Assembly: GCA_029209985.1 (NCBI GenBank)
Contig: JARGNZ010000001.1
Coordinates: 129,982-167,816 of the forward strand
Source: Parvibaculaceae bacterium
GTDB taxonomy: Bacteria > Pseudomonadota > Alphaproteobacteria > Parvibaculales > Parvibaculaceae
Direction of reading: 5' to 3'
DNA: 37,835 nucleotides
The notes below the pieces were generated by a model. It was given only the letters and a program-made list of their open reading frames with translations. It had not been told where the DNA came from and ran no database searches. Numbering within the stretch: position 1 is the stretch's first letter; each line of letters starts with the position of its first letter. A program made the position numbers and the translations under genes. Positions 263 to 31,254 of this stretch are shown in pieces.

Positions 263-2056
263 TTAGAAATAGTCTTTAGCGGCCTGCATAATTTTATTTA
301 CAGTTTCGCTCATGGGCGTCTGTGCATCGCGTGTTTCGTAGTGCATGGACGTAAACCACGGCATTTGGCCTGTGCCCAGGCACATGGGGTCACTTGCGGG
401 ACCATAGGTGAACGTAGGTTTGCCCAGCGCGCCGGCCATCACGGCGACGGCGGTTCGGGGCGAAATCACAATATCTACAGCGGCCGTGAGCGCGGCAATG
501 GCTTCCATGTCATCTTTCAGGTCGATACCGTCGGGTTCATGTAGAGGCGTTTTCAATGCAGTGGTGAGGGTCTCTCGTTCCTGTTGTGTGACGCCGTATT
601 GTAAATTCACCAAGCTGACGGTGGGCTGCTCGAATAGAGCTTGCCAATCTAGGAGGCTTCCGTAGTGATGCTGGCGGTGGCTTGCCATGTTGCCGCTGCG
701 CCATGCAAATCCAACACGGCATGAGCCTGGGAGGGAGCTTACAAATGCTTTCATCGCGCTTAAAGGCTCTAAAGTCGGGATTAAATAAGCTGTTTTGTTC
801 TCAAAGCTTGCGAGTGTGGGGCGTAGCAGCCGTGGTAGAGAGCCAATAGGCAGTTGCAATGCGACTTGTTCTTCATCTTCTGTCGTGTGTTTTGAGCTTA
901 CGTGGGCCTGTGGGAAGGTGTGTCTAAATAGTGGTATGAGCCTTGGTTCTGTTTTGATGTAAACCGTGCTGCCTTGTTCTTGAGCGGTTGTCATCACTTC
1001 AGGAATGCAGGTGGCAAACCTTAGAGTGTCGCCAATCCCTTGTTCGGTCCAGATAAGTAGGTTGCGCCCGGCAAGAGGGTCTCCCTTCCATCTTGGAATA
1101 GAACTGGAAGCATAGGCGTCTTCCATCTCTGTGCCTAAGAACCGTGCTTCGTAATGATGCCAACCCTTTTTAAGGTCTCCGGTCGCGAGCAATGACAGAG
1201 CTAAGTTGGCTTCGATTGATTTATCCCCACGCGAAAGTGTGAGGGCTGTTTCTAGCTCTTCGATTGCCTCTGTCTGCTTGTTTTGGTCTGCGAGAAGTAA
1301 GCCAATTTGAGCATGAATGTTGGCATCTTTGGGGGCCAGCTCAAGGGCACTTTGGTAATGGGTGGTTGCTTGGGAAATTTGCGCGAGATTGCGGCAGGCA
1401 TTTCCGGCATTGAGATGGGCACTAAAAGAGGGAGAGATTTTAAGCGCGTGCTCTGCACATTCCAGCGCCTCGACAGGCCGGTCTAATTTTAGGAAGGTGG
1501 CGGCCTTATTGGTCCATGCGTCGTACATGCCGGGGGAGAGGGCTAACGCCGCCTCATATGACAGCAAAGCGTCGTCGAGGAGGCCCTCATCCTTAAAGGC
1601 ATTGGCTAGGTTGAAATGAGCCTGTGCAAAATCTGGTTTTAGGTCGATAAGCTTTTCGAGGGTCACAATGGCTTCGCTGTTTTCTCCAGCTTCACGTAAT
1701 ACGACGCTTAAAGACAGCATGGCGGAGGTGTTATCTGGTTGGAGGGCGAGCACATTATTGTAGCCTTCGATTGCCGCTTGCTTTTGTCCCATGCGAGCCA
1801 GTGCATTGGCGCGTAGTAAACAGGTGGACGGCATGTCAGGTTTTTGCTTTAAGGCTCGCTCTGCTAATTGAAGGGCTTGGCTTGTTTTGCCCAACATTAA
1901 ACTTGCTTCAGCCATCAGGTTGAGGGCGAGCAGGTTTTGTGGGTCTTGTTTGAGCACCTTTTGATAAATCTTGGCGGCTTTTAAGTAATCACCTTGGCGG
2001 TGTAGCGCCATTGCAGTGTCAATAGAGCTTTTTAAGAGGGCGGCTTTATTGCTCAT
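263..2056 (-). CDS. TPR protein with C-terminal glycosyltransferase-like domain (FlmG-like candidate)
   Basis: About 597 residues. The N-terminal half is a run of tetratricopeptide repeats, with recurring patterns such as A..LL..Y..AL.L.P in 34-residue steps. The C-terminal 250 or so residues carry a GT-B/GT9-like region with the motif WTEQGIGDTLRFA, then VGFAWRSG, VNLQY and DLKDDMEAIAALTAAVDIVIS. The same motifs, in the same order, occur in the upstream neighbour, so the two are paralogues. In Caulobacter, FlmG pairs a flagellin-binding TPR domain with a glycosyltransferase domain; transfer of sugar to flagellin is my inference from that architecture and the flagellar context. The start is set at MSNKAALL: AGGA lies nine bases upstream, whereas the longer frame to 2098 begins at a codon without a ribosome site. 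An ATG at 2062 is also possible. Confidence 0.8.
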   Translation of the reverse strand: MSNKAALLKSSIDTAMALHRQGDYLKAAKIYQKVLKQDPQNLLALNLMAEASLMLGKTSQALQLAERALKQKPDMPSTCLLRANALARMGQKQAAIEGYNNVLALQPDNTSAMLSLSVVLREAGENSEAIVTLEKLIDLKPDFAQAHFNLANAFKDEGLLDDALLSYEAALALSPGMYDAWTNKAATFLKLDRPVEALECAEHALKISPSFSAHLNAGNACRNLAQISQATTHYQSALELAPKDANIHAQIGLLLADQNKQTEAIEELETALTLSRGDKSIEANLALSLLATGDLKKGWHHYEARFLGTEMEDAYASSSIPRWKGDPLAGRNLLIWTEQGIGDTLRFATCIPEVMTTAQEQGSTVYIKTEPRLIPLFRHTFPQAHVSSKHTTEDEEQVALQLPIGSLPRLLRPTLASFENKTAYLIPTLEPLSAMKAFVSSLPGSCRVGFAWRSGNMASHRQHHYGSLLDWQALFEQPTVSLVNLQYGVTQQERETLTTALKTPLHEPDGIDLKDDMEAIAALTAAVDIVISPRTAVAVMAGALGKPTFTYGPASDPMCLGTGQMPWFTSMHYETRDAQTPMSETVNKIMQAAKDYF

Positions 2057-2103
2057 GGTCATTATTCCTACAGCAGGGGCGCGGTGGCGGATCGCCAAAT
2101 GGA

Positions 2104-4164
2104 TTATGCCGTGAAGGCTTTGAACTCGACTTGAAAATCTGCCGTCATCGTTTTTACCATTTGCTCGCGTTGGGTTACGCCGGGCTGAATTGGATAGAAC
2201 TTAGAATTTGGCGCCCATGGTACATGGGGCTGTCCCAATTGAACTGGATGCCTGCCTTGTCCATAAAAGAATGTTCGTATGCCTTGAGAGTTTGCAATTT
2301 CAGCGACGGACGAGCCGGAGCTGACAACAAATTTCATGAGAGAGGTGAGGGCAAACACACCCTCCATGTCGTCCTTCATATCCATCCCCGGCATTTGGTG
2401 CACGGTGAGGCCATACTTGTCTTGTATCGCAGCCAGTTCCTCATCAACATCAGTGTATTGAAGATTGATCCAAATGGAATTTTTGGTGCGCATCAGATCG
2501 ATCCAATCTGTCGGATCGGTGAAATAATTAGACCTTCCATCGTCCACTTTTCCTGACCGCCAAGAAAGGCCACACGGGATGCCGGGGCCTAAACTTTCTA
2601 ACCACTGCCGGCACTCTTCGATGCGTTTTGGGTCTGGTATCAGGTACGCATTTTGCGCAGGGAACATATTAAGAGAGCGACGGAAATAACTGGCGGCTAA
2701 ACCAGCTGGTGCCGTTACGTCGAAATCGACTTCTTTCATGTTGCCACGGCCTGTTGAGGTTCTGGTTTCTGGGCGGACCAATGCCTTTGGAAAGGAGCGT
2801 TGATAGAGCGAGACTAGGCGTGGATCTGTTTCAATGATGAGCTTCTTCACCCGGTCGCTCAATTCGTTGTAGATCGAGGCGAACCGCATATCGTCGCCAA
2901 TCCCTTGCTCGCGCCAGACCATAAAGGTTTTGTCGGAAACATCTTCGCCTTCCCAGATCAGACCAGGAAAAGGGCGGTAGGGCAGGCGCTGACCGCTTGC
3001 AAAGCCAAACCCAAAGAGGTCCCAGCCTTGTTCAACATATCCAGCCGCAAGGCAATTGAGCGCTAAATTCCATAAGGCACCGTCGGCGTTTGGTTTGATT
3101 TCCAACGCACGTTGACAGGCCTTCATGCCTTGTTCCGGCATACAGAGCGAGTGATAGGTAGAGGCCAAGTTGACCAATGCCTTTGTATCTGTCGGGTCTA
3201 ATTGAAGCGCCTTTTGGAGAACAAGCAGCGCTTCTTTATGCTGACCCACTTTGTTCAGGGCAAACCCGATTGAAATGTAAGGTGCCGCATAGTTTGGGTC
3301 CATCTCAATGGCCGTTTGTGCATAATCAACAGCTTCTTGATAGGCCCCGCGCTTGCCAGCGTTTGAACTCATGGAGACGTAAAGCATGGTCATGTCGGGA
3401 AATAATTTGAGCGCCTTCGTCAGGACTTCTTTGCCTTCTTCCAATCTATTTTGATTATTTAGCAGGGTCGCTAAGTTATTGAAGGAGGCTGCTAGTGTAT
3501 TATCGAGTGCTATCGCGCGCTGGTAATAGATGATCGCTTCATCGAACAGTTCCACTTTGCGGCAAATCTCAGCGAGAAGTTGCAAGGTTTTGCCTTCTAA
3601 GGTCACTGCATTTTCTAATTCGGCGAGAGCAGATTTGACGTCTTCAACGCGCTCCATATCTGCCAAACAGGAAATCTTTAATTGGTGGGCTAATACGTTG
3701 TCTGGCTCCAAGGACAATATGCGCCCGGTGATTTCTAAGGTTTCGTCATAGAGCGCGTCGGACAATCTATTTGAGGCTCGTTGGACCAAAGCTCTCACAA
3801 AATTTGGATCTATATCGAGGGCACGATCTGTGTATTCCATGCCTTTAGTCGTATTGCCCATCCGATTGTGATTGATGGCTAGATTAAATTGGCTGGCCGC
3901 ATCATCTGGTGCCAACGCGGCTGCTTTTTCAAAGTAGGGGAGGGCTTCAAGCGACTTACCGGCTTGCAGTAAAATACTGCCGATACGGGTGATAGCGGGA
4001 ATGTCATTGGGATGATGATCTAAAAACCGTTTGTAGCGCGCAAGGGCTTGTTCCTTGTGGCCTGCAAAGAATAGTTTTTCAGCTTGCTGCCAAATACGCT
4101 CACCTGTGGTGGATTTGCTGGCTAATTCTGAATTCGCTGCCCCTTTGGGCGCCTGATTGGACAT
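2104..4164 (-). CDS. TPR protein with C-terminal glycosyltransferase-like domain (FlmG-like candidate)
   Basis: About 686 residues. There are roughly ten TPR units over residues 20-400, for example AYQEAVDYAQTAIEMDPN. A C-terminal glycosyltransferase-like region follows, marked by VWREQGIGDDMRFAS, CGLSWRSG, INLQYTDVDEEL and DMKDDMEGVFALTSLMKFVVSS. It is the longer paralogue of the gene directly downstream, which starts about 50 bp later, so the pair is likely one transcript. No signal peptide or membrane helix is visible, so it should be cytoplasmic, where flagellin would be modified before export (inference). The chosen start is MSNQAPKG, with GGAG seven bases upstream. An ATG at 4200 (MLIELDKK) with a weaker GGGA site is the alternative. 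Confidence 0.8.
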   Translation of the reverse strand: MSNQAPKGAANSELASKSTTGERIWQQAEKLFFAGHKEQALARYKRFLDHHPNDIPAITRIGSILLQAGKSLEALPYFEKAAALAPDDAASQFNLAINHNRMGNTTKGMEYTDRALDIDPNFVRALVQRASNRLSDALYDETLEITGRILSLEPDNVLAHQLKISCLADMERVEDVKSALAELENAVTLEGKTLQLLAEICRKVELFDEAIIYYQRAIALDNTLAASFNNLATLLNNQNRLEEGKEVLTKALKLFPDMTMLYVSMSSNAGKRGAYQEAVDYAQTAIEMDPNYAAPYISIGFALNKVGQHKEALLVLQKALQLDPTDTKALVNLASTYHSLCMPEQGMKACQRALEIKPNADGALWNLALNCLAAGYVEQGWDLFGFGFASGQRLPYRPFPGLIWEGEDVSDKTFMVWREQGIGDDMRFASIYNELSDRVKKLIIETDPRLVSLYQRSFPKALVRPETRTSTGRGNMKEVDFDVTAPAGLAASYFRRSLNMFPAQNAYLIPDPKRIEECRQWLESLGPGIPCGLSWRSGKVDDGRSNYFTDPTDWIDLMRTKNSIWINLQYTDVDEELAAIQDKYGLTVHQMPGMDMKDDMEGVFALTSLMKFVVSSGSSVAEIANSQGIRTFFYGQGRHPVQLGQPHVPWAPNSKFYPIQPGVTQREQMVKTMTADFQVEFKAFTA

Positions 4165-4233
4165 AGACCCGCTCCACTTCTTATCCAGCTCTATGAGCAT
4201 GGATTTCCCAACCTTAGGAATCCCAGATTAAGG

Positions 4234-12189: not shown

Positions 12190-12684
12190 ATGAGCGATAC
12201 TGATGTAGATGGACAGGGCGAGGGTGCTCCTAAGAAGTTTTCCGGTAAAGTGATCATTCTCTTTATTATCCTGCCGTTGTTGCTGATTGCCGGCATTGGC
12301 GGGGCTGTTTTGATGTTTGCTGGTGGCGATGAAACTGTGGCCGAGGGCAGCGAAGCCAGTGGCGCAGGTCCAAAGGTTGAACCGGTCTTTTATGAGCTTC
12401 CTGAGTTTTTGGTGAACCTCACAACATCGGGCAATGCGACACGTTATTTAAAGATGCGTGTGTCTCTTGAACTCCATAACCCGGAAAATGTAGCCAAACT
12501 GGAAGCAGTTTTGCCGCGTGTGTTGGACGGGTTTCAAACTTATTTGCGCGAGCTACGGCCAGAAGATTTTGAAGGTTCGACGGGTATGTTCCGGTTAAAG
12601 GAAGAATTACTGCGTCGGATTAATATTGCTGTTGCTCCTATTGAAGTGCACGACGTGCTTTTTAATGAGGTCATTGTTCAGTAA
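12190..12684 (+). CDS. fliL: Flagellar basal body-associated protein FliL
   Basis: 164 residues. A short cytoplasmic tail is followed by one membrane helix (about 21-46, VIILFIILPLLLIAGIGGAVLMF) and a periplasmic domain with VEPVFYELPEFLVNLTTSGNATRYLKMRVSLEL, DGFQTYLRELRPEDFEGSTGMFRLKEELLRRINIAVAP and DVLFNEVIVQ, all typical of FliL. FliL surrounds or supports the stator units and stabilises their active form. AAGGGG lies five bases before the ATG. It opens the plus-strand operon and is followed by fliM after about 33 bp. Confidence 0.94.
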   Translation: MSDTDVDGQGEGAPKKFSGKVIILFIILPLLLIAGIGGAVLMFAGGDETVAEGSEASGAGPKVEPVFYELPEFLVNLTTSGNATRYLKMRVSLELHNPENVAKLEAVLPRVLDGFQTYLRELRPEDFEGSTGMFRLKEELLRRINIAVAPIEVHDVLFNEVIVQ

Positions 12685-12717: not shown

Positions 12718-13947
12718 ATGATTGATGATGAAGAAGTAGACCAAGAAGCAATGGCCGCCGCGTGGGGCGAGGGGGCTGATGATGAGCTGTCGGAAGATGG
12801 TTCTGCCGATGCAGCTTCTGGCGAAGATGATGTTGATCAAGATGCGCTTGCTGCTGAATGGGGTATTGGGGCAGATGACGATGTGGATGATGCGGACGAT
12901 GGTTCTGCCGGGTTAGATAATTCAGGTACTGCTGAACGAGTTCTGAACCAAGATGAAATTGATAGTCTTCTGGGTTTTGAAGCTGAGGAGAGTGAAGGCG
13001 CGGATCGCAATGGTATCCGAGCGATTATCAATTCTGCGCTGGTTTCCTATGAACGCTTGCCGATGTTGGAAATTGTTTTCGACCGATTGGTTCGGTTGAT
13101 GACGACGTCGCTGCGTAATTTTACGTCTGATAATGTTGAGGTGAGTTTAGACAACATCTCCTCCATTCGATTTGGCGACTATCTAAATTCTATTCCATTG
13201 CCTGCTATTCTGTCTGTCTTTCGAGCTGAAGAGTGGGACAACTACGGCCTATTTACGGTCGACTCCAATTTGATTTATTCCATTGTGGATGTGCTTTTGG
13301 GCGGTCGCCGGGGTACGGCGGCGATGCGTATTGAAGGGCGGCCTTATACGACGATTGAGCTGAACCTTGTGCAGCGTATGATTGAAGTTGTGCTTGCGGA
13401 TGCGCGGGCCGCTTTTGAACCTTTGTCGCCTGTGAACTTCCAACTTGATCGGATGGAGACCAATCCACGGTTTGCTGCGATTGCCCGTCCCGCAAATGCG
13501 GCTATTTTGGTGAAGTTGCGGATTGATATGGAAGATCGCGGGGGGCGCATTGAAATGCTCCTGCCTTATGCGACGCTTGAGCCTATTCGTGAGCTGTTAC
13601 TGCAAATGTTCATGGGGGAAAAGTTTGGGCGTGACTCAATCTGGGAAAGCCACCTTGCAACAGAGCTTTGGTCTACGAAGGTGCAGCTTGATGCGGTACT
13701 TGATGAACAGAAAATGAGCCTCCGTGATGTGATGAACTTGGAGGTTGGGCAGACAGTTCTCTTTAATAGTAGCCCTAATGACCCTGTTCAAATGCGCTGC
13801 GGTGGTATTCCGTTGGTGTCGGGGCGTCTGGGGCGCATGGGTGCGCATGTTGCGGTGCGGATGAACGAAAGCATTTACGATTTACGAGGCCGGGGGCAAT
13901 CTGCCCGTGACGATGATGACAGTGACACGAAAGGGGCGGACGCATGA
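12718..13947 (+). CDS. fliM: Flagellar motor switch protein FliM with duplicated acidic N-terminal extension
   Basis: 409 residues. The CheY-binding motif of FliM, normally at the extreme N-terminus, appears at 76-87 as LNQDEIDSLLGF. Ahead of it lies an Asp/Glu/Ala-rich extension with two copies of VDQ(E/D)A(M/L)AA(A/E)WG.GADD, at 7-22 and 39-54. The middle CheC-like domain (about 100-290, with ISSIRFGDYLNSIPLP and YSIVDVLLGG) and the C-terminal SpoA domain (about 325-395, ATELWSTKVQLDAVLDEQKMSLRDVMNLEVGQTVLF) are complete. FliM joins FliG to FliN in the C-ring. fliN does not follow. Its last codons overlap the next gene as ATGA. Confidence 0.95.
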   Translation: MIDDEEVDQEAMAAAWGEGADDELSEDGSADAASGEDDVDQDALAAEWGIGADDDVDDADDGSAGLDNSGTAERVLNQDEIDSLLGFEAEESEGADRNGIRAIINSALVSYERLPMLEIVFDRLVRLMTTSLRNFTSDNVEVSLDNISSIRFGDYLNSIPLPAILSVFRAEEWDNYGLFTVDSNLIYSIVDVLLGGRRGTAAMRIEGRPYTTIELNLVQRMIEVVLADARAAFEPLSPVNFQLDRMETNPRFAAIARPANAAILVKLRIDMEDRGGRIEMLLPYATLEPIRELLLQMFMGEKFGRDSIWESHLATELWSTKVQLDAVLDEQKMSLRDVMNLEVGQTVLFNSSPNDPVQMRCGGIPLVSGRLGRMGAHVAVRMNESIYDLRGRGQSARDDDDSDTKGADA

Positions 13948-14510
13948 GCGGTTTTCCTTGGAATATGCTGGTTGATTTGGTGGCGATCGCATTGTTGGGT
14001 GCCACGGTGTTTTATTGTGTCCTGCTTGACCGCCGTTTACGGGCCATGCGCGATGGGCAAGACGGCTTAAAAGATACAATCCATACGCTGAATGAAGCCT
14101 GTGACCGCGCGGCGATGAGTGTGCGCAATCTATCGGGCGCAACAGAACAAGTGGATGAGGAATTGGAGCGCCGGCTTGAACGGGCACGTGCGCTTGCGGA
14201 TGAATTAGGGATGATTTTGGAATCCGGCAACAATTTGGCTGATCGCCTAACTGGTGCGTCAACGGATGCAGCACGTCGGGCAAGTGCGCCGGTTGAGTTG
14301 CGTTCTAATCCTACCGCCGACACGCACCGCACGGTGGCATTGGATGATGTGATGCCTAAAGGCATGACCTTTTCAGGCTCGGACCCGATGGAATCCAAAG
14401 AAAGTGCGAGTGAAGCTTTGCGCCGCTCCCTTGATGATGGGGTAGAGCGGGGCGGTATGCCGCCAGAGCTAGAGAAGCAATTGTTAGATACATTACGCAG
14501 AGCGCGTTGA
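13944..14510 (+). CDS. DUF6468-type membrane-anchored coiled-coil protein in the flagellar operon
   Basis: 188 residues. One N-terminal membrane helix (about 7-28, MLVDLVAIALLGATVFYCVLL) is followed by LDRRLRAMRDGQDGLKDTIHTLNEACDRAAMSVRNLSGATEQVDEELERRLERARALADELGMILESGNNLADRL. That is a long amphipathic coiled coil resembling the DUF6468 family of alphaproteobacterial flagellar operons; the family name is from memory. The rest is polar and poorly conserved apart from a C-terminal helix (PPELEKQLLDTLRRAR). No function is established. The start overlaps fliM by four bases (ATGA), and four bases separate its stop from the MotE-like gene. A structural link between C-ring and membrane is only a guess. 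Confidence 0.78.
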   Translation: MSGFPWNMLVDLVAIALLGATVFYCVLLDRRLRAMRDGQDGLKDTIHTLNEACDRAAMSVRNLSGATEQVDEELERRLERARALADELGMILESGNNLADRLTGASTDAARRASAPVELRSNPTADTHRTVALDDVMPKGMTFSGSDPMESKESASEALRRSLDDGVERGGMPPELEKQLLDTLRRAR

Positions 14511-14514
14511 GGGT

Positions 14515-15270
14515 ATGATTGTGAAATTTCTACAGAGTGCACGAGTGCGAAATAAAGTGAGACTGCTGCCAGCGGTCATTTTGTTTGCGCTTGTTCTGAT
14601 GATTTCAAAGATTTTTACGGTCGGACAAGACGTGACGGATATTTTCACCACGCAAGGGGCATCGGCTGCTTTGGAAGAAACAGCTTCTGCTGATACCGCT
14701 GATGAGACGACGTCGTCGGCTAGTGATACGACCGCCGATACCGCTAATGATAGTGCTCAAGCTGGTGTGGCGGGGCAGATGGACAAGGGGGCCATGGTGC
14801 CCAAAGGCTCTATGGTTGGATTTACTCCTGAGCCTGAGATGTCAAGTGCGGAGCGGAAGCTTTTACAAAACCTATCAGCCCGCCGGACGGAGTTGGACAA
14901 GCGCGAGCGTGAAATTAGAATGCAGGCCAGTTTGTTGAAAGCGACTGAAGCCCGTATTGAGAAACGCATTGGTGAGCTGAAAACACTGCAAACGCGGATT
15001 GAAAGCTTCTTTGGTGAAGAAGACACCCAGAAAAAAGATCAAATCGCGTCATTGGTGCTTATGTATTCTTCCATGAAACCCAAGAGCGCTGCACGTATTT
15101 TGGAACGCTTGGATTTGGATATTCTGGTGAAAGTGATCCGGGGCATGAGTGAGCGTAAAGTTGCACCGATACTCGCCGCAATGGACCCTGTGGCAGCGCA
15201 AGAGTTGACTGTTGAGTTGGCTGCAAGTGCAGAATTGCCAAGTGATCTGAGAGATTTACCTACCTTGTAA
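14515..15270 (+). CDS. MotE-family protein (MgtE-N-like, coiled coil)
   Basis: 251 residues. A membrane helix or uncleaved signal (about 16-32) leads to a low-complexity Asp/Thr/Ala linker. A strong coiled coil follows at about 110-165 (SAERKLLQNLSARRTELDKREREIRMQASLLKATEARIEKRIGELKTLQ), then an MgtE-N-like helical domain: IASLVLMYSSMKPKSAARILERLDLDILVKVIRGMSERKVAPILAAMDPVAAQELTVEL. This is the MotE architecture. In Sinorhizobium MotE is a periplasmic chaperone for MotC, which acts on MotB. No MotC is recognisable here, but two MotB-like proteins and a large exported protein follow, so one of them may be its client (inference). Confidence 0.8.
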   Translation: MIVKFLQSARVRNKVRLLPAVILFALVLMISKIFTVGQDVTDIFTTQGASAALEETASADTADETTSSASDTTADTANDSAQAGVAGQMDKGAMVPKGSMVGFTPEPEMSSAERKLLQNLSARRTELDKREREIRMQASLLKATEARIEKRIGELKTLQTRIESFFGEEDTQKKDQIASLVLMYSSMKPKSAARILERLDLDILVKVIRGMSERKVAPILAAMDPVAAQELTVELAASAELPSDLRDLPTL

Positions 15271-15324
15271 AATATTCAACGTCTAGGCCGCCAACTCATT
15301 GTTTTCTCTGAGATCGTGGGGAGG

Positions 15325-15414
15325 TCTGGCGTGATAGTTAATCTCGAATTAACTCCGTTTCTGTTAGGCTTTTCAAGGTGTCGCGTTTCAGATGGGTAGC
15401 CTTCTGGCGTGATA
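15325..15414. repeat. 12-bp direct repeat flanking the CtrA box of the MotB-like operon
   Basis: TCTGGCGTGATA occurs at 15325-15336 and again at 15403-15414, 78 bases apart, within the 173-base gap before the MotB-like gene. The first copy runs straight into the CtrA box. A second regulator's binding sites or a chance duplication are both possible. Confidence 0.45.
15338..15352 (+). promoter_or_regulatory. CtrA box upstream of the MotB-like operon
   Basis: TTAA-TCTCGAA-TTAA, a perfect TTAA-N7-TTAA nested in the larger inverted repeat AGTTAAT-CTCGA-ATTAACT. It lies about 92 bp before the GTG start of the first MotB-like gene, implying that the last three genes of the block have their own cell-cycle-linked promoter besides read-through from fliL. 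Confidence 0.65.
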
Positions 15415-15443
15415 CGATGGGATGGGTGAGAGAGGCGTAATCT

Positions 15444-16166
15444 GTGGAACAGGTGCCGCCCCTAGGTGTGGGGCAACAAAACGGACAGGGTGGACCTATT
15501 CGCAACGCTTTACGGAGTGCGCGGATGGGTGAGGCTGTGTCTGGCCTGCAGGGCGCGCGCGGTTTTACACACTCCATTCACATGCAGCAATTATCGCTGT
15601 TTTTGCTTCTTTTTACCTTCTTTGTGGTTTTGACCGCTAAGGCTGACTTCGATGTTGGGCGCACGGGGGCTGTTTTGGGCAGTGTCCAGCTCGCTTTTGG
15701 GGGAGAGGTCGGTTCGGTTGTGTCGCAAGAGGGGGCCGCGTATCAGGATCCGGCTTTTGCACCGGAAGATATTTTGCCACTTGATCCACTCTTTGAAAAA
15801 GAGCTGGAAGTTGTTTTTGCCGAAGCCAAAAACTTAGGGGGCACCGCACAAAATAGTCGGCGTCCTGAAATTGAGTTGTCGTCTCAAATGCTCTATCTGT
15901 CTGGTTCAGCGGCTCTGTTGCCTCAGAGTGATGGCTTTGTGAACGAGATTGCCAAGGTGTTGGCAGAACGCCAGACAGTGCAGCGGCAAATTTCTATTCT
16001 GGTCAAAGCATCTAGCCCAACTTTGGCATTGTCACGGGTACGCTCATTGTCCCGTGCGCTTGTGCAAGCAGGAGCCCCGGTTGACGGGGTGGTGAGTGAA
16101 GTGTCTCCAGAGAATGGAGATGTAATCTCTTTGCGCTTGTTTCGGATAAAGGGGACGCGTGCATGA
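15444..16166 (+). CDS. MotB-like membrane protein lacking the proton-binding aspartate
   Basis: 240 residues from a GTG start, with AGAGG eight bases upstream. A single membrane helix lies at about 47-65 (MQQLSLFLLLFTFFVVLTA), preceded by an N-terminal cytoplasmic stretch. The periplasmic part ends in a weak OmpA/MotB-like domain (about 130-235: LYLSGSAALLPQSDGFVNEIAKVLAERQTVQRQISILVKAS, then a region of LSRVRSLSRALVQAG type). MotB needs an Asp in its helix to carry protons or sodium ions; here there is no acidic residue between 30 and 68. It is therefore unlikely to conduct ions by itself. It overlaps the second MotB-like gene as ATGA. The relation to MotB rests on topology and the tandem partner more than on strong identity. 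Confidence 0.65.
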   Translation: MEQVPPLGVGQQNGQGGPIRNALRSARMGEAVSGLQGARGFTHSIHMQQLSLFLLLFTFFVVLTAKADFDVGRTGAVLGSVQLAFGGEVGSVVSQEGAAYQDPAFAPEDILPLDPLFEKELEVVFAEAKNLGGTAQNSRRPEIELSSQMLYLSGSAALLPQSDGFVNEIAKVLAERQTVQRQISILVKASSPTLALSRVRSLSRALVQAGAPVDGVVSEVSPENGDVISLRLFRIKGTRA

Positions 16167-16873
16167 CCTTGTCTCCTCTCTTGACCAAACGACCTTTGGC
16201 GCTTCCGACTGATGGCGGCGAGGAGGTGGAAGCTGCCACACCGTTGTGGCTGGTTACTTTCGCTGATTTGATGGGCATCTTAGTGGTCTTTTTCGTTTTG
16301 ATTTTTTCTATGTCAAAACCAGAAGGCAGTTCTTGGTCATCGATCTTTCCAAACTCTTTGATGGGGACATCTGTTCAAGCGCAAAAACTGCTGCTGGCAG
16401 AGGGAAAGTCCGATACAAAAAGTTTACAGCCACAGTCCAAAGCTAGTTTGGACTTGGGGTATTTAGCTCATGTCTTGGCCCAAGGGGGCATCACGACCGG
16501 TGATGACCAAGGACCGATTGGATCCATTGGGTTTAGACCAAGCTACAGAGGTCGCTCTTTACTTCTTTCGAGGTCTGCGACAGGCATGTTTGTTACATTT
16601 ACCGACGAATTGACTTTGCCTGCGTTGACGGCTCTGTCAAACTTCGCGGGTGTGATGGATAATGTGGGTAATCGCTTGTCCGTCGTTATTTCGGTGTCTG
16701 CGGCTGAAAGTGATGAGCCTTGGCGGCTTGGACTTCAGCGCGCGCAGGGTGTGCGTACCTATTTGGAACAAGTTGGGTATGAAGGCGGTGTGACGCTTGT
16801 GACAAAAACAGTTTCAAATGGACAGGGATTGATTGAATTGGTCATTGCGCCACGGCAGGGGACGGATACATGA
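16163..16873 (+). CDS. MotB-like membrane protein with conserved helix aspartate
   Basis: 236 residues. PLWLVTFADLMGILVVFFVLIFSMS at about 27-51 closely follows the MotB helix pattern (W.V.FADLM...FF.L..S), with Asp35 where MotB has its essential ion-binding Asp. The periplasmic part (about 130-236) is a divergent OmpA-like domain: the segment WRLGLQRAQGVRTYLEQVGYEGGVTLVTKTVSNGQG matches the L...RA..V..YL...G region that binds peptidoglycan in MotB and Pal. No MotA is in this window. It may be an alternative stator half or a partner of the preceding protein. Both ends overlap their neighbours as ATGA, so translation of the three genes is coupled. Confidence 0.68.
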   Translation: MTLSPLLTKRPLALPTDGGEEVEAATPLWLVTFADLMGILVVFFVLIFSMSKPEGSSWSSIFPNSLMGTSVQAQKLLLAEGKSDTKSLQPQSKASLDLGYLAHVLAQGGITTGDDQGPIGSIGFRPSYRGRSLLLSRSATGMFVTFTDELTLPALTALSNFAGVMDNVGNRLSVVISVSAAESDEPWRLGLQRAQGVRTYLEQVGYEGGVTLVTKTVSNGQGLIELVIAPRQGTDT

Positions 16874-19800
16874 GACATCTACGTTCTGCTTTTGTGTGGG
16901 TCTCCTTGGTGTTCAGCTTTTCGCTGGTCGCTCCTCTTTCTGTTTGGGCCTCGACGGCTGTGGATACTGTGGCTAGCCAAGAAGAGGGCTATGGACGTAT
17001 TGTTTTTCAATGGCCAACGGTGCCCACAGTTGAGTTGTTGGAAAACCCCGACATGCCTGAACTGCCTGCCCATAATGCTGTGGTTGCTGCCAATGTATTG
17101 GTGTTGACGTTTGATGAGCCTTTCGATGTGGATATGAAAGGTCTGTTGCGTCAAATGCCAAGCTATTTGGCTTTGGTTCGACGGGACCTTGACGGCAAGA
17201 CGTTGCGATTGGCCATGAAGGCTAACTACCAAATCAACACACAAGAAGCGGGTAGTGCTCTCTATCTCGACTTGCTGCCAGCTGATTGGAAGGGGCCTTT
17301 ACCGGGCTTGCCGGAAAAGGTTGTGACAGCACTTGCTGAGCGTGAGGCTGCGTTGCAATTGGCAGCAGAAGAAAAAATTGATTCATTAGAAATTGCCGAA
17401 CCAAACCAGCAACTCGATATGCGGATTGGGGAGCATGAGAACTTTACGCGATTGGTTTTTGATTGGGGACAGCCGGTTCTCTACACAATGGCGCAACGCG
17501 GCACGCGTGCGACGATTACTTTTGACCGGGCCGCAGCCTTGTCTCTGTCTCGACTTCGTGTTGATCCCCCTCGGTTTATCAATACGGCGACCTCTTTTGA
17601 AAAAGATGGGCGGCTTACTGTTTCTATCGGTATGCCCAATGGCGTTGTTGTAAGTGATTTTCGAGAAGACCTTTCCGTTGTGATGGACTTCTCAAATGGC
17701 GGACAAGTTGTGGAAGCTGACCGCCGCGCAAAGTCTGGCAAACCATCGGGCGAAGCGATTGTTAAGCCTGAGAAGGTTGCCTCGAAACCGGCGCAAGCGG
17801 GTCAGGAAGTGAGCGCCTCTCAGGACGCTTCTACGTCTGCCACTGGACCAGATCAAAGTGGCCCCAAAAACATCAAGTCTGCGTCGGTTCTCCCGGATGC
17901 GCCACGACCTGAGGATGTGGCTTCAACAGATGCCGGGGAAATTATTCCAGAGGGGCCGTCTCAAGTTCAAGTTGATGTGCTTGGAACGAGCGTACGTCTG
18001 ACCTTCCCTTGGGCGGAGCGTGTGGGGGCGGCTGTTTTCCAACGGGCAGGCAAGGTTTGGATGGTCTTTGACACAACAGATGGGGTGGACCTTTCTGGTT
18101 TTGATCAAGAGGCGCGCCTTCTTATCGGTGAGCCAGAAGTCATTCCTGTTGATGATGCGACCATTGTTCAGTTCAGCCCTAAAGATAGAGTGTTGCTGAC
18201 GGCGAGTGAGAAGGGCCGCAGTTGGATTGTGACCCTGGGGGATGTGATTGTTGAGCCCATGCGGGCGGTGACATTGAACCGTGGTTGGGCTGAAAATGGC
18301 GAAGCTAAAGTGTCGCTCGACTTACGTGGCCGGGGGCGTGTGCACTGGGTGCGGGACCCGGAAGTGCGCGACGTGCTTGCGATTGTAACGGCCAATGGGC
18401 CGGGGCAAGGGTTGGTGGCCCCGCGTAATTTTGTTGAATTTTCTGCGATGGCCACAACACAAGGTTTGGTCTTTGTGCAATTGGCGGATGACCTTTATGT
18501 CCGTGCTTTGGAAGATGAAGTCATTGTCTCTCGTGGGTCAGGTTTGACGCTATCTGCGGCGAATGCTGCTGAGTACGGCAAGCAGGGGCAACGGGACTTC
18601 AACACGGGTGATCCGGGCAAGATGGATTTTGCCCGGTGGCGTGAAGTGCCGGGGGATGATTTTTTTGAACGTCGCCAATATTACCAAAAAATGCTTGTGG
18701 ACCGGGATGGGGACCCGATCGAAACCACTATTCGGTATGCGCAATTTTTGATGAGCTACGGCCTTGCAAGTGAAACTCTTGCTTTGCTGAGAAGCCTGTC
18801 GCGGAAATATCCAGATGTTTTGATTGAGCCTGCTTTTAAGGCGCTGCGGGGGGTGGCGAGCTTCCAGCGTGGCAACTTAGAAGAGGCGATGACAGATTTA
18901 TCTGAACACGCTTTGTTGCGCGACCCGCATGCTGCTTTGTGGCGGGGGGCATTACATGCTGAATTGGGACAATGGCGCGAAGCGCGTGAGGATTTCGCGC
19001 GGGCAAAAAATACGTTTGAAGAATATGAGCCTAACGAACAAGCGCTGTTCCGCATCCGTGCAGCAGAGGCTGAGCTATCTGCGGGCGACTTGCCTTCTGT
19101 GGCCTATAACCTGAACCAAATTCCAAGCGGCGTTACAAGTGAGCGCTATCAGTTGGAAAAAGAGATGGTGCAGGGGCGTATGTTTGAGGCAGCTAATCGC
19201 ACGGATGAGGCTTTGGAGAAATTTGAACGTGTGATCCAGGCCCATTACAGACCTGTTTCCACGCGTGCACGGTTTGCGAAGGCAAAATTGCAGCACCGAA
19301 ATGGACTGATTGATGACCAAGGACTTGAAGAAGAACTGGAACGATTGAAATTTGCGTGGCGTGGTGATGATTTAGAGCTGGCCATTCTTGAGAATTTGGC
19401 AGAGATGAAGCTGGCGCGCGGGAAAGTTAAAATGGCGCTTAACATGATGCGCAAGGCGGTTAGCCATTATCCTAATACGGACCGGGGGCGCCGCATGGCG
19501 TCTCGGATGACGGAAATTTTTACAGATCTCTTTTTGTCCGGCGGGGCGGACCAAATGGATTCAGTTGAAGCGTTGGCGCTCTATTATGATTTCCGGGAGC
19601 TTACGCCGATTGGGCGGCGCGGGGATGCGATGATCCGTCGATTGGCGGACCGTTTGGTTGATGTTGATTTGTTGGACCAAGCAGGAGAGCTGCTTCAGCA
19701 TCAGGTTGATCATCGGTTGCGCGGTATTGCGCGGGCACAGGTTGCCACAAAGCTTGCGTTGATCCGCTTGATGGACCGACAGCCAGAACAAGCCTTGGCA

Positions 19801-20325
19801 GCTATTCGGAGCAGCCGACAATCTCTTTTGCCGGATGATTTGGCTTTGCAGCGGCGCTTGATGGAAGCGCGGGCTTTGGCGGAGCTGGGTTTGGAAGACC
19901 ATGCTTTGGAGTTGCTTGAAAATCAAGAAGGCAGAGAAGCCCAATTGTTACGGGCGGATGTGTTGTGGAGCTCCCAACAATGGGAACAATCCGGCACCCA
20001 AGTTGAGAGTTTATTAGGACGGGTTTGGGCATCGAATGAGGCCTTATCGGATACAGACCGGGCCTTGGTGATGCGTGCGGCGATTGCATATTCTTTAGCG
20101 GATAATCCGGTGGCACTTGAACGGCTGCGGAAGAAGTATGGCGAGAAGATGCGGGCCAGTGAAGACGGGAATAGCTTTGCTACGGTTACCGAGCCCATCG
20201 AGCGCCAAGGGGTCGAATTTCGTGCTTTAGCGCGTGAGATCGCTGGCGTTGATACGCTCGATCGGTTCATTAACAGCTTCCGTGAGCGGTATGACCTTAA
20301 AGAGGGGGCGACAGCGATTAACTAA
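16870..20325 (+). CDS. Large periplasmic beta-domain/TPR protein of the flagellar operon
   Basis: 1151 residues. A signal peptide ends near SVWA (27). The N-terminal half has repeated AMIN-like beta segments: GRIVFQWPTVPTVELL and VLVLTFDEPFDV (about 42-85), FTRLVFDWGQPVLYTMAQRGTRATITFD (about 190-220) and VRLTFPWAERVGAAVFQRAGKVWMVFDT (about 375-402), with a polar linker around 285-365. From about 617 on it is helical with TPR units, such as YAQFLMSYGLASETLALLRSLSRKYPD and ALWRGALHAELGQWREAREDFARAK. No catalytic motif is visible. The beta-sandwich-plus-TPR layout resembles in form the PflA stator scaffold of epsilonproteobacteria, but I see no evidence of homology. It is the last gene of the block, overlapping the second MotB-like gene by ATGA. 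Confidence 0.75.
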   Translation: MRHLRSAFVWVSLVFSFSLVAPLSVWASTAVDTVASQEEGYGRIVFQWPTVPTVELLENPDMPELPAHNAVVAANVLVLTFDEPFDVDMKGLLRQMPSYLALVRRDLDGKTLRLAMKANYQINTQEAGSALYLDLLPADWKGPLPGLPEKVVTALAEREAALQLAAEEKIDSLEIAEPNQQLDMRIGEHENFTRLVFDWGQPVLYTMAQRGTRATITFDRAAALSLSRLRVDPPRFINTATSFEKDGRLTVSIGMPNGVVVSDFREDLSVVMDFSNGGQVVEADRRAKSGKPSGEAIVKPEKVASKPAQAGQEVSASQDASTSATGPDQSGPKNIKSASVLPDAPRPEDVASTDAGEIIPEGPSQVQVDVLGTSVRLTFPWAERVGAAVFQRAGKVWMVFDTTDGVDLSGFDQEARLLIGEPEVIPVDDATIVQFSPKDRVLLTASEKGRSWIVTLGDVIVEPMRAVTLNRGWAENGEAKVSLDLRGRGRVHWVRDPEVRDVLAIVTANGPGQGLVAPRNFVEFSAMATTQGLVFVQLADDLYVRALEDEVIVSRGSGLTLSAANAAEYGKQGQRDFNTGDPGKMDFARWREVPGDDFFERRQYYQKMLVDRDGDPIETTIRYAQFLMSYGLASETLALLRSLSRKYPDVLIEPAFKALRGVASFQRGNLEEAMTDLSEHALLRDPHAALWRGALHAELGQWREAREDFARAKNTFEEYEPNEQALFRIRAAEAELSAGDLPSVAYNLNQIPSGVTSERYQLEKEMVQGRMFEAANRTDEALEKFERVIQAHYRPVSTRARFAKAKLQHRNGLIDDQGLEEELERLKFAWRGDDLELAILENLAEMKLARGKVKMALNMMRKAVSHYPNTDRGRRMASRMTEIFTDLFLSGGADQMDSVEALALYYDFRELTPIGRRGDAMIRRLADRLVDVDLLDQAGELLQHQVDHRLRGIARAQVATKLALIRLMDRQPEQALAAIRSSRQSLLPDDLALQRRLMEARALAELGLEDHALELLENQEGREAQLLRADVLWSSQQWEQSGTQVESLLGRVWASNEALSDTDRALVMRAAIAYSLADNPVALERLRKKYGEKMRASEDGNSFATVTEPIERQGVEFRALAREIAGVDTLDRFINSFRERYDLKEGATAIN

Positions 20326-20412: not shown

Positions 20413-20820
20413 GTGAATTATTTTTTAACTTGCCTTACATCAAAGTATGTAGCGTTTTCGGGTCGTGCTCGGCGGGCTGAATATTGGTACTATACGTTAT
20501 TCCTAATCATAGCTTGGATTCTTGCGTCTGTTGCGGACATGCTCTTGGGGGTCACGATTGACGGACCCAATGGCGTCTCGTCTGGTCTGGGTGCTTTTAC
20601 AATTATTTTGAGCCTCGGCACACTCTTGCCTAGCTTAGGGGTTTTGGTTCGTCGTCTTCATGACACTGACCGGTCTGCATGGTGGTTGCTGCTTTATTTA
20701 ATTCCACTTATCGGGCCTCTTGTCATGTTGGTGTTCTTGGTACTGAAAGGTACAGACGGTGAAAACCAGTATGGTGCCGATCCGATTACCGGTGGTGTCG
20801 ATCAAGAAGTTTTCAAATAG
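20413..20820 (+). CDS. DUF805 family inner membrane protein
   Basis: 135 residues. It starts YFLTCLTSKYVAFSGRARRAEYWYYTLF, the DUF805 signature (F.GRA.R.EYW), followed by membrane helices near 28-46, 60-85 and 95-118, with GVLVRRLHDTDRSAWWLLLYLIPLIGPLVMLVFLVLKGTDGENQYG, also diagnostic. The family is widespread and of unknown function. The start is GTG with AGGGG seven bases upstream. It lies alone between the large TPR protein and the convergent fliP, with an intrinsic terminator after it. Nothing links it to the flagellum except position. Confidence 0.88.
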   Translation: MNYFLTCLTSKYVAFSGRARRAEYWYYTLFLIIAWILASVADMLLGVTIDGPNGVSSGLGAFTIILSLGTLLPSLGVLVRRLHDTDRSAWWLLLYLIPLIGPLVMLVFLVLKGTDGENQYGADPITGGVDQEVFK

Positions 20821-25888: not shown

Positions 25889-25922
25889 TGATGAGTGACA
25901 CAGATTGATGAGTGACACAGAG
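25889..25922 (+). repeat. 17-bp tandem duplication at the cckA start, creating a 5-codon leader frame
   Basis: Two adjacent 17-base units (25889-25905 and 25906-25922) differ only in the last base. Each contains ATG-AGT-GAC-ACA-GA. The first ATG (25891) opens MSDTD and stops at TGA 25906-25908, which overlaps the ATG of cckA (25908) as TGATG. No good Shine-Dalgarno lies close to either ATG, so coupling through this mini-frame is a possible way to start cckA. Confidence 0.6.
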
Positions 25923-28478
25923 ACGAAAATTCTAGACGCAGATATGGCGGACACACAGACGCGCGCGGGGATAGGCTCTCTATCCTTGGGTAAATGGGCC
26001 TTGCGCGGCGCGGGGCTTGGGGCGGTTTCGCTTGCGGGTGTTGCAGGTGGTTTGGCGCTTATTGATTTGGAAACGGCGGGTCCTGCTGGCTATCTCTTGG
26101 TGAGCGGTTTGGCTCTTGCCGGGGCGGCGGCGTTGGCGGCTGTTGCTGCCGGACGTGGACGCGCGGCTGGCCTGTCCGCCAATAAAGCCTCTGTTCTTGC
26201 CCTGTCTGCTTTGGAAGTCATCCCGGACCCCTGCGCGGTGACAGATTGGCGCGGCGGTGTTCTTTTTGCCAACCAAGCGTACCGCCAATTGGGTTTGGAT
26301 GAAAATGACCGTCCTATTTCCCTTGAACGTTTAATGGCCGGAGATGACCGGGTGTCGGAGGCGCTTTATCAATTGGCGCAGGCCGCACGCCTAGGCTTGT
26401 CAGATGAAGCTGAATTGAGGTTTCAGCCGCCTGCTGGGCGCGGTGTGCGGGTGTATCAAGTTACGGTGCAGCCAGTGCATGAGCAGGCCAACGGTGGCAG
26501 CGGCAAAGGGGCGCTGTGGCATTTGCGCGATGTGACGGGCGAACGTGAAGCGACAGACGCCGCGCACCGGGAGCAGGGCCGTTTCATTGGGTATTTGGAT
26601 ACAGCCCCATTTGGGTTCTTTTCTGCACAACCTTCCGGTGTCATTACATATGTCAATGAAACGCTGGGCACGTGGCTTGCGCTGGACCCGGACCGGATTA
26701 CGGAACGCGGGTTGGCGCTGAGTGATTTGGTGCAGGGAGATGTTGGGGCGCTTGCGCCGCCTGTGGTTAATGAAGGTGAGGTTGGCCAACCGGTGCCAGA
26801 GGTGCTGGATGTGGACCTACAGGGGCCAGAAGGCATTGTTCCGGTTCGGATTGTGCAATCTTATTCCTATGACGGGCAGGGAACGCCGATAGCGTCGCGC
26901 TCGTTGGTGTTGGATCGCTCGCCGGGCGACAAGGTGGAAGCGCACCTGCGGGATGCAGAGATGCGGTTTGCGCGGTTCTTTAACACCTCTCCCATTGGCA
27001 TTGTCGTGCTGGACCGGGACTTGCGCATTGAAAGCGTCAATGCGGCCTTTACTGGATTGGTGGGGGAGCAAGTGGCCCGTGGGGCTGATTTTACAGCGCT
27101 TGCTGTCTCCGATGATATTGCAGACCTGAAAGCGGCGATTGATGATGCGGGTGGGAGCACGGGCACGGTTGCCTCGACCGATATTCGCCTTGCAGGGCAG
27201 GCGGACCGTGTAGCGCATGTCTTTGTGAGCTCTCTTGCCGGGAACGAAGAAGAGCAGGGTGGGATTGTTTTGTATCTCATTGATGCGACCGAGCAGAAAA
27301 ACCTCGAAATTCAATTTGCGCAATCGCAAAAAATGCAAGCTGTTGGCCAATTGGCTGGGGGCGTGGCACATGACTTTAACAATCTTCTCACGGCCATTAT
27401 TGGGTTTTGTGATTTGCTGTTGGCACGGCACAAAGCCGGGGATCCGTCCTTTGCGGACGTGATGCAAATCAAGCAAAATGCCAACCGGGCGGCAAACCTG
27501 ACAAGGCAATTGCTGGCCTTTTCGCGCCGTCAAACGCTGCGACCAAAAGTGTTGGCGCTAACCGATGAGCTGGCTGAACTGTCCAACTTGTTAGCGCGGT
27601 TGCTGGGTGAAAAAGTAGAACTTAAAATTGTGCACGGGCGCGATCTCTGGCCGGTGAAGGTTGATCAAAATCAACTTGAGCAGGTCATTATCAATCTAGC
27701 GGTGAATGCGCGGGATGCGATGCCGGATGGCGGCAAGTTGACGATCCGCACTGCGAATGTGACGGAAGAAGATTCCCGCGCGCTGGATCATTCGATGATG
27801 CCGGATGCGGAATATGTACTGATTGAAGTGGGCGATACCGGTGTTGGTATTCCTCAAGAGAATTTGGCAAAAATCTTTGAGCCGTTTTTCACGACAAAGG
27901 ATGTGAACAAGGGAACCGGTTTGGGGCTGTCGACGGTTTACGGGATTGTGAAACAAACGGGCGGATTTATTTTCCCCTTCTCGGCATTGAACAAAGGAAC
28001 CTCGTTTCGGATCTATTTACCGCGCCATGTGATGGAGGCGGGAGCTGTTATTGAGGCGGATTTGGAAGCCGAGCAAGAAGTCGCGGAATCCAAGAAAGAT
28101 TTAAGTGGGCACGGCACCATTCTACTGGTTGAAGACGAAGACGCAGTGCGGACCTTTGCGGCGCGCGCGTTGCAATCGCGTGGGTATGACGTGTTGGAAG
28201 CTGAGGCGGGTGACATCGCTTTGGAAGTTGTGGAAGACTTTGATGGCGAAATTGATTTGGTCGTCTCAGATGTTGTGATGCCCAATATGGACGGGCCAAC
28301 GATGATCAAGCATTTGCGCGAAATACGTCCGGACATTAAAGTCATTTTTGTTTCAGGTTATGCAGAAGATGCCTTTGAAAAGAGCTTGGACCCTGACCAA
28401 GAATTTCGTTTTCTGCCCAAGCCTTTCAGTCTCAAGCAGCTTGCGGGCGCTGTAAAAGAAGCGATTGAAGAAGGTTAG
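25908..28478 (+). CDS. cckA: Hybrid histidine kinase CckA
   Basis: 856 residues. Two N-terminal membrane helices (about 34-52 and 59-82) are followed by PAS-type regions (about 98-210, 215-340 and 345-465). The HisKA domain has the H-box AGGVAHDFNNLLTAIIGF with phospho-acceptor His488. An ATPase domain (about 585-700) shows NLAVNARDAMPDGGKL, DTGVGIP and GTGLGLSTVYGIVKQTGG, and a C-terminal receiver (about 735-850) has phospho-acceptor Asp788 in VSDVVMPNMDG. This order, with AHDFNN, is that of CckA, which sends phosphate through ChpT to CtrA and CpdR. The perfect CtrA boxes in this window fit. The frame is open one codon further to a TTG at 25905. Confidence 0.93.
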   Translation: MSDTETKILDADMADTQTRAGIGSLSLGKWALRGAGLGAVSLAGVAGGLALIDLETAGPAGYLLVSGLALAGAAALAAVAAGRGRAAGLSANKASVLALSALEVIPDPCAVTDWRGGVLFANQAYRQLGLDENDRPISLERLMAGDDRVSEALYQLAQAARLGLSDEAELRFQPPAGRGVRVYQVTVQPVHEQANGGSGKGALWHLRDVTGEREATDAAHREQGRFIGYLDTAPFGFFSAQPSGVITYVNETLGTWLALDPDRITERGLALSDLVQGDVGALAPPVVNEGEVGQPVPEVLDVDLQGPEGIVPVRIVQSYSYDGQGTPIASRSLVLDRSPGDKVEAHLRDAEMRFARFFNTSPIGIVVLDRDLRIESVNAAFTGLVGEQVARGADFTALAVSDDIADLKAAIDDAGGSTGTVASTDIRLAGQADRVAHVFVSSLAGNEEEQGGIVLYLIDATEQKNLEIQFAQSQKMQAVGQLAGGVAHDFNNLLTAIIGFCDLLLARHKAGDPSFADVMQIKQNANRAANLTRQLLAFSRRQTLRPKVLALTDELAELSNLLARLLGEKVELKIVHGRDLWPVKVDQNQLEQVIINLAVNARDAMPDGGKLTIRTANVTEEDSRALDHSMMPDAEYVLIEVGDTGVGIPQENLAKIFEPFFTTKDVNKGTGLGLSTVYGIVKQTGGFIFPFSALNKGTSFRIYLPRHVMEAGAVIEADLEAEQEVAESKKDLSGHGTILLVEDEDAVRTFAARALQSRGYDVLEAEAGDIALEVVEDFDGEIDLVVSDVVMPNMDGPTMIKHLREIRPDIKVIFVSGYAEDAFEKSLDPDQEFRFLPKPFSLKQLAGAVKEAIEEG

Positions 28479-30927: not shown

Positions 30928-31254
30928 CGGATTGCCCTAAACGTCGTTGAAATGACTTTGAAAACGCTCTTTCCTCGGGGAAGGGCGTTTTTTTGTCGAA
31001 ATAGCGACATTTTTGGCAAGTTTCTTCGCCCTTTCGTGCGTGCTTGCGCTCTTTCATATGTTGCAATCTTGCCGACTCTCCTTTTGTTCGCAGGCTTAAA
31101 GAGCTGTTTTTGCGGGTTAAGCTTATCGCCTTAAACAGGTTGGTTTTTGGGAGCTGGACGGGGGGCAGTGGTTTCAGTAAAAGCAAGGTAGTTTATTGTC
31201 TTCTCGGTTATGGTGAGCCTGACAATAGTACCGCTAATAATATCGGATGACGCA
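30928..31254. other. recA-alaS intergenic region
   Basis: About 325 bases. Apart from the recA terminator at 30961-30994 I see no gene, RNA family or strong promoter. A weak TATTGT with a poor upstream hexamer near 31180-31200 might start alaS transcription. Short frames here lack codon bias. Confidence 0.5.
30961..30994 (+). terminator. Intrinsic terminator of recA
   Basis: AAAACGCTCTTTCC pairs with GGAAGGGCGTTTT (one bulged base) around a TCGG loop and is followed by a T7 run. It lies about 35 bases past the recA stop. Confidence 0.88.

Follow-up and report, generated by a model that had tools for sequence, protein, structure and literature searches.

MotB-like gene pair beside genes for a known kind of flagellar stator scaffold and its association with an orphan MotA in Alphaproteobacteria

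Models of the flagellar stator assume that its two MotB helices are equivalent, that both bear an aspartate (Asp), and that the MotA ring acts on them alternately. We analysed 37,835 nucleotides from a Parvibaculaceae bacterium (assembly GCA_029209985.1, contig JARGNZ010000001.1, positions 129,982 to 167,816; the whole stretch is called the window), in which two adjacent MotB-like genes, mb1 and mb2, lie in a run of five genes downstream of fliL and fliM. The products of this pair and of a second, distant MotA gene (MotA2) probably constitute an additional stator whose B dimer is heteromeric and which docks on a scaffold of a MotE-like and a tetratricopeptide repeat (TPR) protein. Such scaffolds are known from several bacteria. 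In the Fla2 system of Cereibacter sphaeroides the gene order is fliL-pflI-motE-motA-motK, MotK is a 652-aa protein with AMIN-like and TPR parts, MotE and MotK are both essential for rotation, and an interaction of MotE, MotK and MotB2 is described (PMC10954123). Our locus resembles Fla2 in its MotE-like protein, its exported AMIN-like/TPR protein, its gene order and its link to stators, but Fla2 has motA2 rather than a MotB pair between motE and motK, and no MotB heteropair is reported in the available part of that paper (PMC10954123). In Caulobacter crescentus, deletion of fssB (CC_2058) leaves flagellated but paralysed cells in which stator activity fails (PMC7885107). The likeness here, compared by place and architecture, is that of an exported TPR protein gene beside motE (CC_2059); no mb1-mb2 pair is described in the text available (PMC7885107). 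An earlier note on this DNA had read the locus as a flagellar stator-linked periplasmic module and had held that deletions with normal motility would speak against this; deletions of MotE and MotK (PMC10954123) and of FssB (PMC7885107) give flagella that do not turn, and the module itself, as MotE (E-ring) with a PflA-like AMIN/TPR protein, is supported. The current view places MotE-like proteins in a single family with FlgY and FlbB and takes them to make up the E-ring (PMC13023049). The FlgY-PflA system of Campylobacter and the FlbB collar of Borrelia have an MgtE_N-headed ring protein and a TPR/beta spoke near the stators, to which the putative MgtE_N-headed protein and the spoke-like protein of our locus would correspond, but as far as that source goes their module is without MotB-like genes (PMC13023049).

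For the MotB-like pair itself, the nearest precedents in the available texts are MotB1/MotB2 of Aquifex aeolicus and AglQ/AglS of Myxococcus. The Aquifex motA-motB1-motB2 genes likewise combine one MotA with two tandem MotB genes, but motA is adjacent, each MotB was tested separately with MotA, and the MotB transmembrane regions are 97% identical, so that no Asp-less subunit is present there (PMC4525482). In the Myxococcus system AglR is the one MotA and AglQ and AglS are two MotB homologues, for which the review leaves hetero- versus homodimer formation open; however, Asp is kept in both homologues, and the system serves gliding and not flagella (PMC9389320). The PomAB/MotAB stators of 5:2 composition are related in that MotA2 falls inside the PomA-type MotAs and mb2 is PomB-like, but in these described complexes both B chains are identical and the A gene is, as a rule, adjacent. 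We found no description of a heteromeric one-Asp flagellar stator or of a MotB heteropair in the open-licence literature searched. The earlier statement that no complex of this composition has been described is therefore retained for the MotB heteropair and given up for the scaffold, in view of the published MotE, MotK and MotB2 interaction (PMC10954123). The new part of the locus is mb1 and mb2; the scaffold half, E-ring and spoke, is already known in kind, and to call it a periplasmic stator scaffold is right and not new.

In the window, fliL (12190-12684; PF03748, 2.7e-20) and fliM (12718-13947; PF02154, 1.2e-69, with TIGR01397 above cut-off) are followed by five open reading frames (ORFs), all seven genes being on the plus strand. 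They encode a DUF6468 membrane protein (13944-14510, 188 aa), a MotE-like protein of the FlgY/FlbB E-ring kind (14515-15270, 251 aa), mb1 (15444-16166, 240 aa), mb2 (16163-16873, 236 aa) and an exported, spoke-like AMIN-like/TPR protein of the MotK/FssB/PflA kind (16870-20325, 1151 aa), and all five proteins have N-terminal hydrophobic segments. These coordinates and the strand agree with the earlier note, as do the three ATGA overlaps, each exact at 4 bases (fliM/DUF6468, mb1/mb2 and mb2/TPR gene). The spacing from motE to mb1 is 173 bases, and the GTG at 15444 is merely the longest reading of mb1. The arrangement fliM-DUF6468-motE-TPR goes beyond chance: it is present in all 20 loci drawn from the order, 19 of them with fliL and the remaining one cut by a contig end, and also in Bradyrhizobium, Afipia, Nitrobacter, Roseibium and others. 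mb2 (with mb1) lies between motE and the TPR gene in 8 of these 20 order loci, and the pair is absent from the other 12, all of one genus; in the Parvibaculum-genus loci motE stands immediately before the TPR gene (12/12). Among 80 named loci, a subset kept from 361 relatives, the pair occurs in 8. Thus mb1 and mb2 are separate from the fixed scaffold, and their presence varies with no tie to that of DUF6468, motE or the TPR gene. We rejected the earlier model of a fixed five-gene collar acting as one unit, because the pair is so often missing and tracks MotA2 instead (see below). Its independence of the scaffold, together with this tracking of a distant MotA, indicates that mb1 and mb2 are stator subunits and not scaffold.

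Of 62 fetched stretches with the pair, 54 have the TPR gene after it and 43 have motE before it as well; contig ends truncate several of these stretches. In 33 of 61 loci the mb1/mb2 overlap is precisely 4 bases, and in 54 the two genes lie within 30 bases of each other. As side observations, of 15 distant loci looked at, 13 have a CheZ-like ORF and 11 a CheY-like receiver between motE and mb1, as read by eye (among them L232, L234, L236, L245, L252, L253, L264, L266, L276 and L282); Pfam confirmed CheZ in 3/3 and the receiver in 1/1 of those tested, and the window has neither. Genome G171 (L330, L364) has retained MotA2 although its mb1 and mb2 are separated by ∼5 kb and face opposite ways, the TPR gene being next to mb2.

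The two proteins differ at the ion-binding residue. mb2 matches the MotB_plug family (PF13677, 37.0 bits versus a cut-off of 24) and has the transmembrane ion-binding Asp (Asp35 in the window) in 71/71 rows, near-duplicates included, while mb1 has Ser, Gly or Ala at this column in 66 of 69 rows. The family scan of mb1 gave no match above any cut-off; its assignment comes from the alignments and the Asp column, from a profile comparison with mb2 (match at 99.3%), and from a predicted model with a transmembrane helix, a plug-like helix and an OmpA-like core (predicted local distance difference test, pLDDT, ∼72–92 in the core), for which Foldseek returned OmpA-like and MotB periplasmic domains (best 1.1e-7). 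Two assignments were made otherwise: the first MotB-like protein of L285 scores better as mb2 and was counted as mb1 by position, and mb1 of G175 was assigned by eye and not by model. The peptidoglycan motif is variable in both proteins. In mb2 the Asp of GHxD is found in 31/71 rows and the later Arg in 59/71, and the window's mb2 lacks the motif; in mb1 an exact GHxD beyond residue 90 occurs in 0/70 rows and a loose form in 19/70. When plasmids were searched with mb2, the matches were OmpA-like proteins and MotBs of the ordinary kind; the one in Azospirillum oryzae is part of a motA-motB pair. These residues also bear on the possibility that mb1 and mb2 are static, peptidoglycan-binding parts of a collar with MotE and the TPR protein and have no channel function. 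The operon shared with the scaffold genes and the GHxD Asp in part of the mb2 rows agree with such a role, but the transmembrane Asp of mb2 is invariant, neither mb1 nor mb2 of the window has the motif, most of the 80 named loci have the scaffold but not the pair, and the pair closely co-occurs with MotA2; we regard a static collar as very improbable.

The window genome carries a canonical motA-motB pair (L053) and, directly 3′ of fliN, the second MotA, MotA2, of 255 aa (PF01618, 1.2e-24). MotA2 forms one clade of 53 rows inside the PomA-type MotAs (support 99/95, the bootstrap not having settled), with both key prolines in 53/53 and the FliG-facing loop Arg in 51/53. Its context was fetched for 38 of 61 loci plus G069 and the family loci; fliN is upstream in 36/38 and an FlbD-like regulator is downstream in 36/38. 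None of the 61 MotA2 matches adjoins an mb1/mb2-model match. Since MotA2 has no adjacent MotB, its B subunit must be encoded elsewhere. The MotA2 matches are cleanly set apart from ordinary PomA-type genes, which are placed beside a MotB in 31 of 47 cases by position, and among 20 second-tier MotA matches read directly, 18 have a MotB-type ORF alongside and two are in the fliN context (G270, G175). Twelve Azospirillum plasmid records also carry MotA2, which in the three annotated ones lies between fliN and a sigma-54 regulator. A TolQR/ExbBD-type partner was considered and rejected: MotA2 reads as PomA-type, and the other MotA_ExbB matches of the genome are, by eye, TolQ/ExbB-like or the canonical MotA.

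The presence of MotA2 follows that of the pair. Within the order, strong MotA2 matches (E ≤ 1.5e-83) were found in 11 of 40 genomes, all from the three genera in which the pair is seen, and the other 29 gave weak cross-matches or none (27 of the genus with the 12 pair-less loci and 2 of another genus). In a class sample of 240 genomes, with MotA2 called at E < 1e-60 and the pair defined as adjacent mb1-mb2, the pair is present in 60 genomes, which span 42 families as counted from family codes, MotA2 in 61 and both in 54. Matches to the single models number 93 genomes for mb2, 67 for mb1, 111 for MotA2 at all strengths and 132 for TPR, and FliM was found in 133. After hand checks, 61 genomes share pair and MotA2, 5 have the pair only and 2 MotA2 only (61/68). 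Two genomes of another genus of the family (G001 and G002, genus g2), perhaps non-flagellated, have no TPR and no MotA2 match. Moreover, correlation of distances across 25 genomes, given FliM, yielded partial r values of 0.45 for mb2-MotA2 and 0.41 for mb1-MotA2; with FlbD, the neighbour of MotA2, the values were 0.07 for mb2 and 0.27 for mb1.

We also considered mixed stators, in which mb1 and mb2 would join the canonical MotA that is encoded beside the canonical motB. Canonical MotAB is indeed present in the window genome and in most pair genomes. However, in eight genomes tested for it, canonical MotA was not found in seven and appeared as a fragment in the eighth. Five of the seven (G121, G115, G243, G086 and G210, 81–99% complete) have the pair and MotA2, so that the pair cannot depend on canonical MotA there; in the other two (G162 and G070) neither MotA was detected, and incompleteness weighs in these cases. 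In addition, no MotB gene stands next to MotA2. Mixed stators appear extremely improbable.

Several observations weigh against a stator of MotA2, mb1 and mb2. The association of pair and MotA2 is supported by Fisher tests (p 7.6e-39 for 240 genomes and 3.5e-24 among the 133 FliM genomes), but these ignore kinship, and it was chiefly the discordant genomes that were read by hand, a one-sided check that tilts the counts towards agreement. Five genomes have the pair without detected MotA2 (G070, G097, G107, G160 and G162, 78–95% complete), and two have MotA2 without the pair (G069, 63% complete, and G082, 97%); G082 likewise gave no FliM match, and its TPR match begins close to the end of a contig. 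On four Azospirillum replicons with MotA2, the mb2 model found no mb2 pair and two partial OmpA-side matches. The mb1 rows group together in the MotB tree (68/69), with support of only 62 to 89; rows of <150 aa were removed from this tree, taking mb1 from 70 to 69 and mb2 from 71 to 70. The partial r of mb1-mb2 given FliM is 0.22, a value reached in 21 of 500 permutations and weaker than expected of tight partners; together with the mb1-FlbD value it argues less for a close pairing. Finally, three mb1 rows (L238, L260 and L285) keep the Asp, and may be loss intermediates or later duplications. Some of these points would fit an ordinary stator made of MotA2 and an mb2 homodimer, with mb1 as an accessory single-transmembrane protein (assembly factor, brake or spoke adaptor) outside the axle: mb1 evolves faster and has a weak mirror-tree tie to mb2, and Asp and plug model matches are confined to mb2. 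But mb1 is itself a full MotB homologue, with transmembrane segment, plug-like helix and OmpA-like fold, it adjoins mb2 and is gained and lost together with it, and the Asp in three loci points to a former stator subunit. We therefore consider an mb2 homodimer with accessory mb1 unlikely, though deserving of some weight.

For the heteromeric stator, which we favour, the following arrangement can be suggested. The MS ring would be encircled by an E-ring of MotE, and as a spoke the AMIN/TPR protein would keep the stators close to this E-ring and attached to the cell wall. The translationally coupled mb1 and mb2 would pair with each other and with MotA2, whose ring would turn around the mb1/mb2 heterodimer as an axle. 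mb2 alone would supply the ion-binding Asp, and mb1, without the Asp and the exact peptidoglycan motif, may be the half responsible for gating and, by binding the TPR spoke, for docking. What we observed are the genes, their coupling, genomic linkage and co-occurrence, the residues and the folds of single chains; from these we infer the complex, its composition of one mb1 and one mb2 per stator, the docking on the spoke and the one-Asp rotation. A bolder version, for which we see about an even chance, is that this is a widespread alphaproteobacterial stator that is obligately asymmetric, with a MotA2 ring, one mb2, one mb1 and a single Asp, the ion-dead mb1 being the fixed half for docking and gating, clamped by the AMIN/TPR spoke, and that it is perhaps the sole stator in some lineages. 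If so, torque would come from one active helix, and each turn would take approximately half as many ion steps as in a stator with two Asp. Such a natural stator, in which one MotB lacks Asp, would directly test the need for both sites and how the axle is held, and it would provide a parts list for unassigned periplasmic structures of alphaproteobacterial motors. It would also explain the MotA gene by fliN, which in public records is merely a ‘MotA/TolQ/ExbB proton channel family protein’.

The scaffold proteins of the window fit the described kinds with different strength. The DUF6468 protein (PF20072, 1.4e-18) occupies the pflI site of Cereibacter and Caulobacter and, by analogy with the gene order in PMC10954123, would be the PflI counterpart. 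The MotE-like protein scores 25.0 bits (2.8e-5) with MgtE_N PF03448, just below the cut-off of 25.9, and 36.9 bits (3e-9) with the FlbB collar model NF047368, below its cut-off of 110. Its assignment also draws on the family alignment, on its site between fliM-DUF6468 and the TPR gene, and on its layout: an N-terminal hydrophobic segment (a 19-mer at residue 18), a long middle stretch and a C-terminal MgtE_N-like head. The TPR protein exceeds the TPR_2 cut-off (34.4 versus 27 bits), matches the AMIN-like family PF24837 only weakly (E 0.021), and has the signal-type hydrophobic N-terminus of an exported protein. Its predicted model (mean pLDDT 83.5) has repeated beta domains at ∼32–137, 181–276 and 367–457 and a TPR superhelix at 587–1142. 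Foldseek over 350,542 chains placed chain 9hmf_K, a Campylobacter motor scaffold, at the top (3.3e-11), but with TM values of only 0.13/0.17. 9hmf is not among the 50 VIA-align rows for this model, an absence that is uninformative since the rows are filled by other TPR folds. The alignment profile found just two weak TPR matches among PDB sequences, and a plasmid search with the protein gave no match; a scan with the TPR alignment gave named Parvibaculum and Tepidicaulis records and ‘Rhodobiaceae’ genomes as its nearest matches, which marks the window genome as a relative of these two genera. Judged by its gene position and domain layout and not by sequence comparison, the TPR protein is likely the counterpart of MotK and FssB (CC_2058). 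Directly 3′ of its gene lies a DUF805 membrane protein (20413-20820). Elsewhere in the window, the flagellar cluster is bordered at 263-4200 by a pair of large minus-strand ORFs with TPR repeats, of 611 and 698 aa, and two long ORFs of 857 and 910 aa (25905-28478 and 31210-33942) lie inside the cluster.

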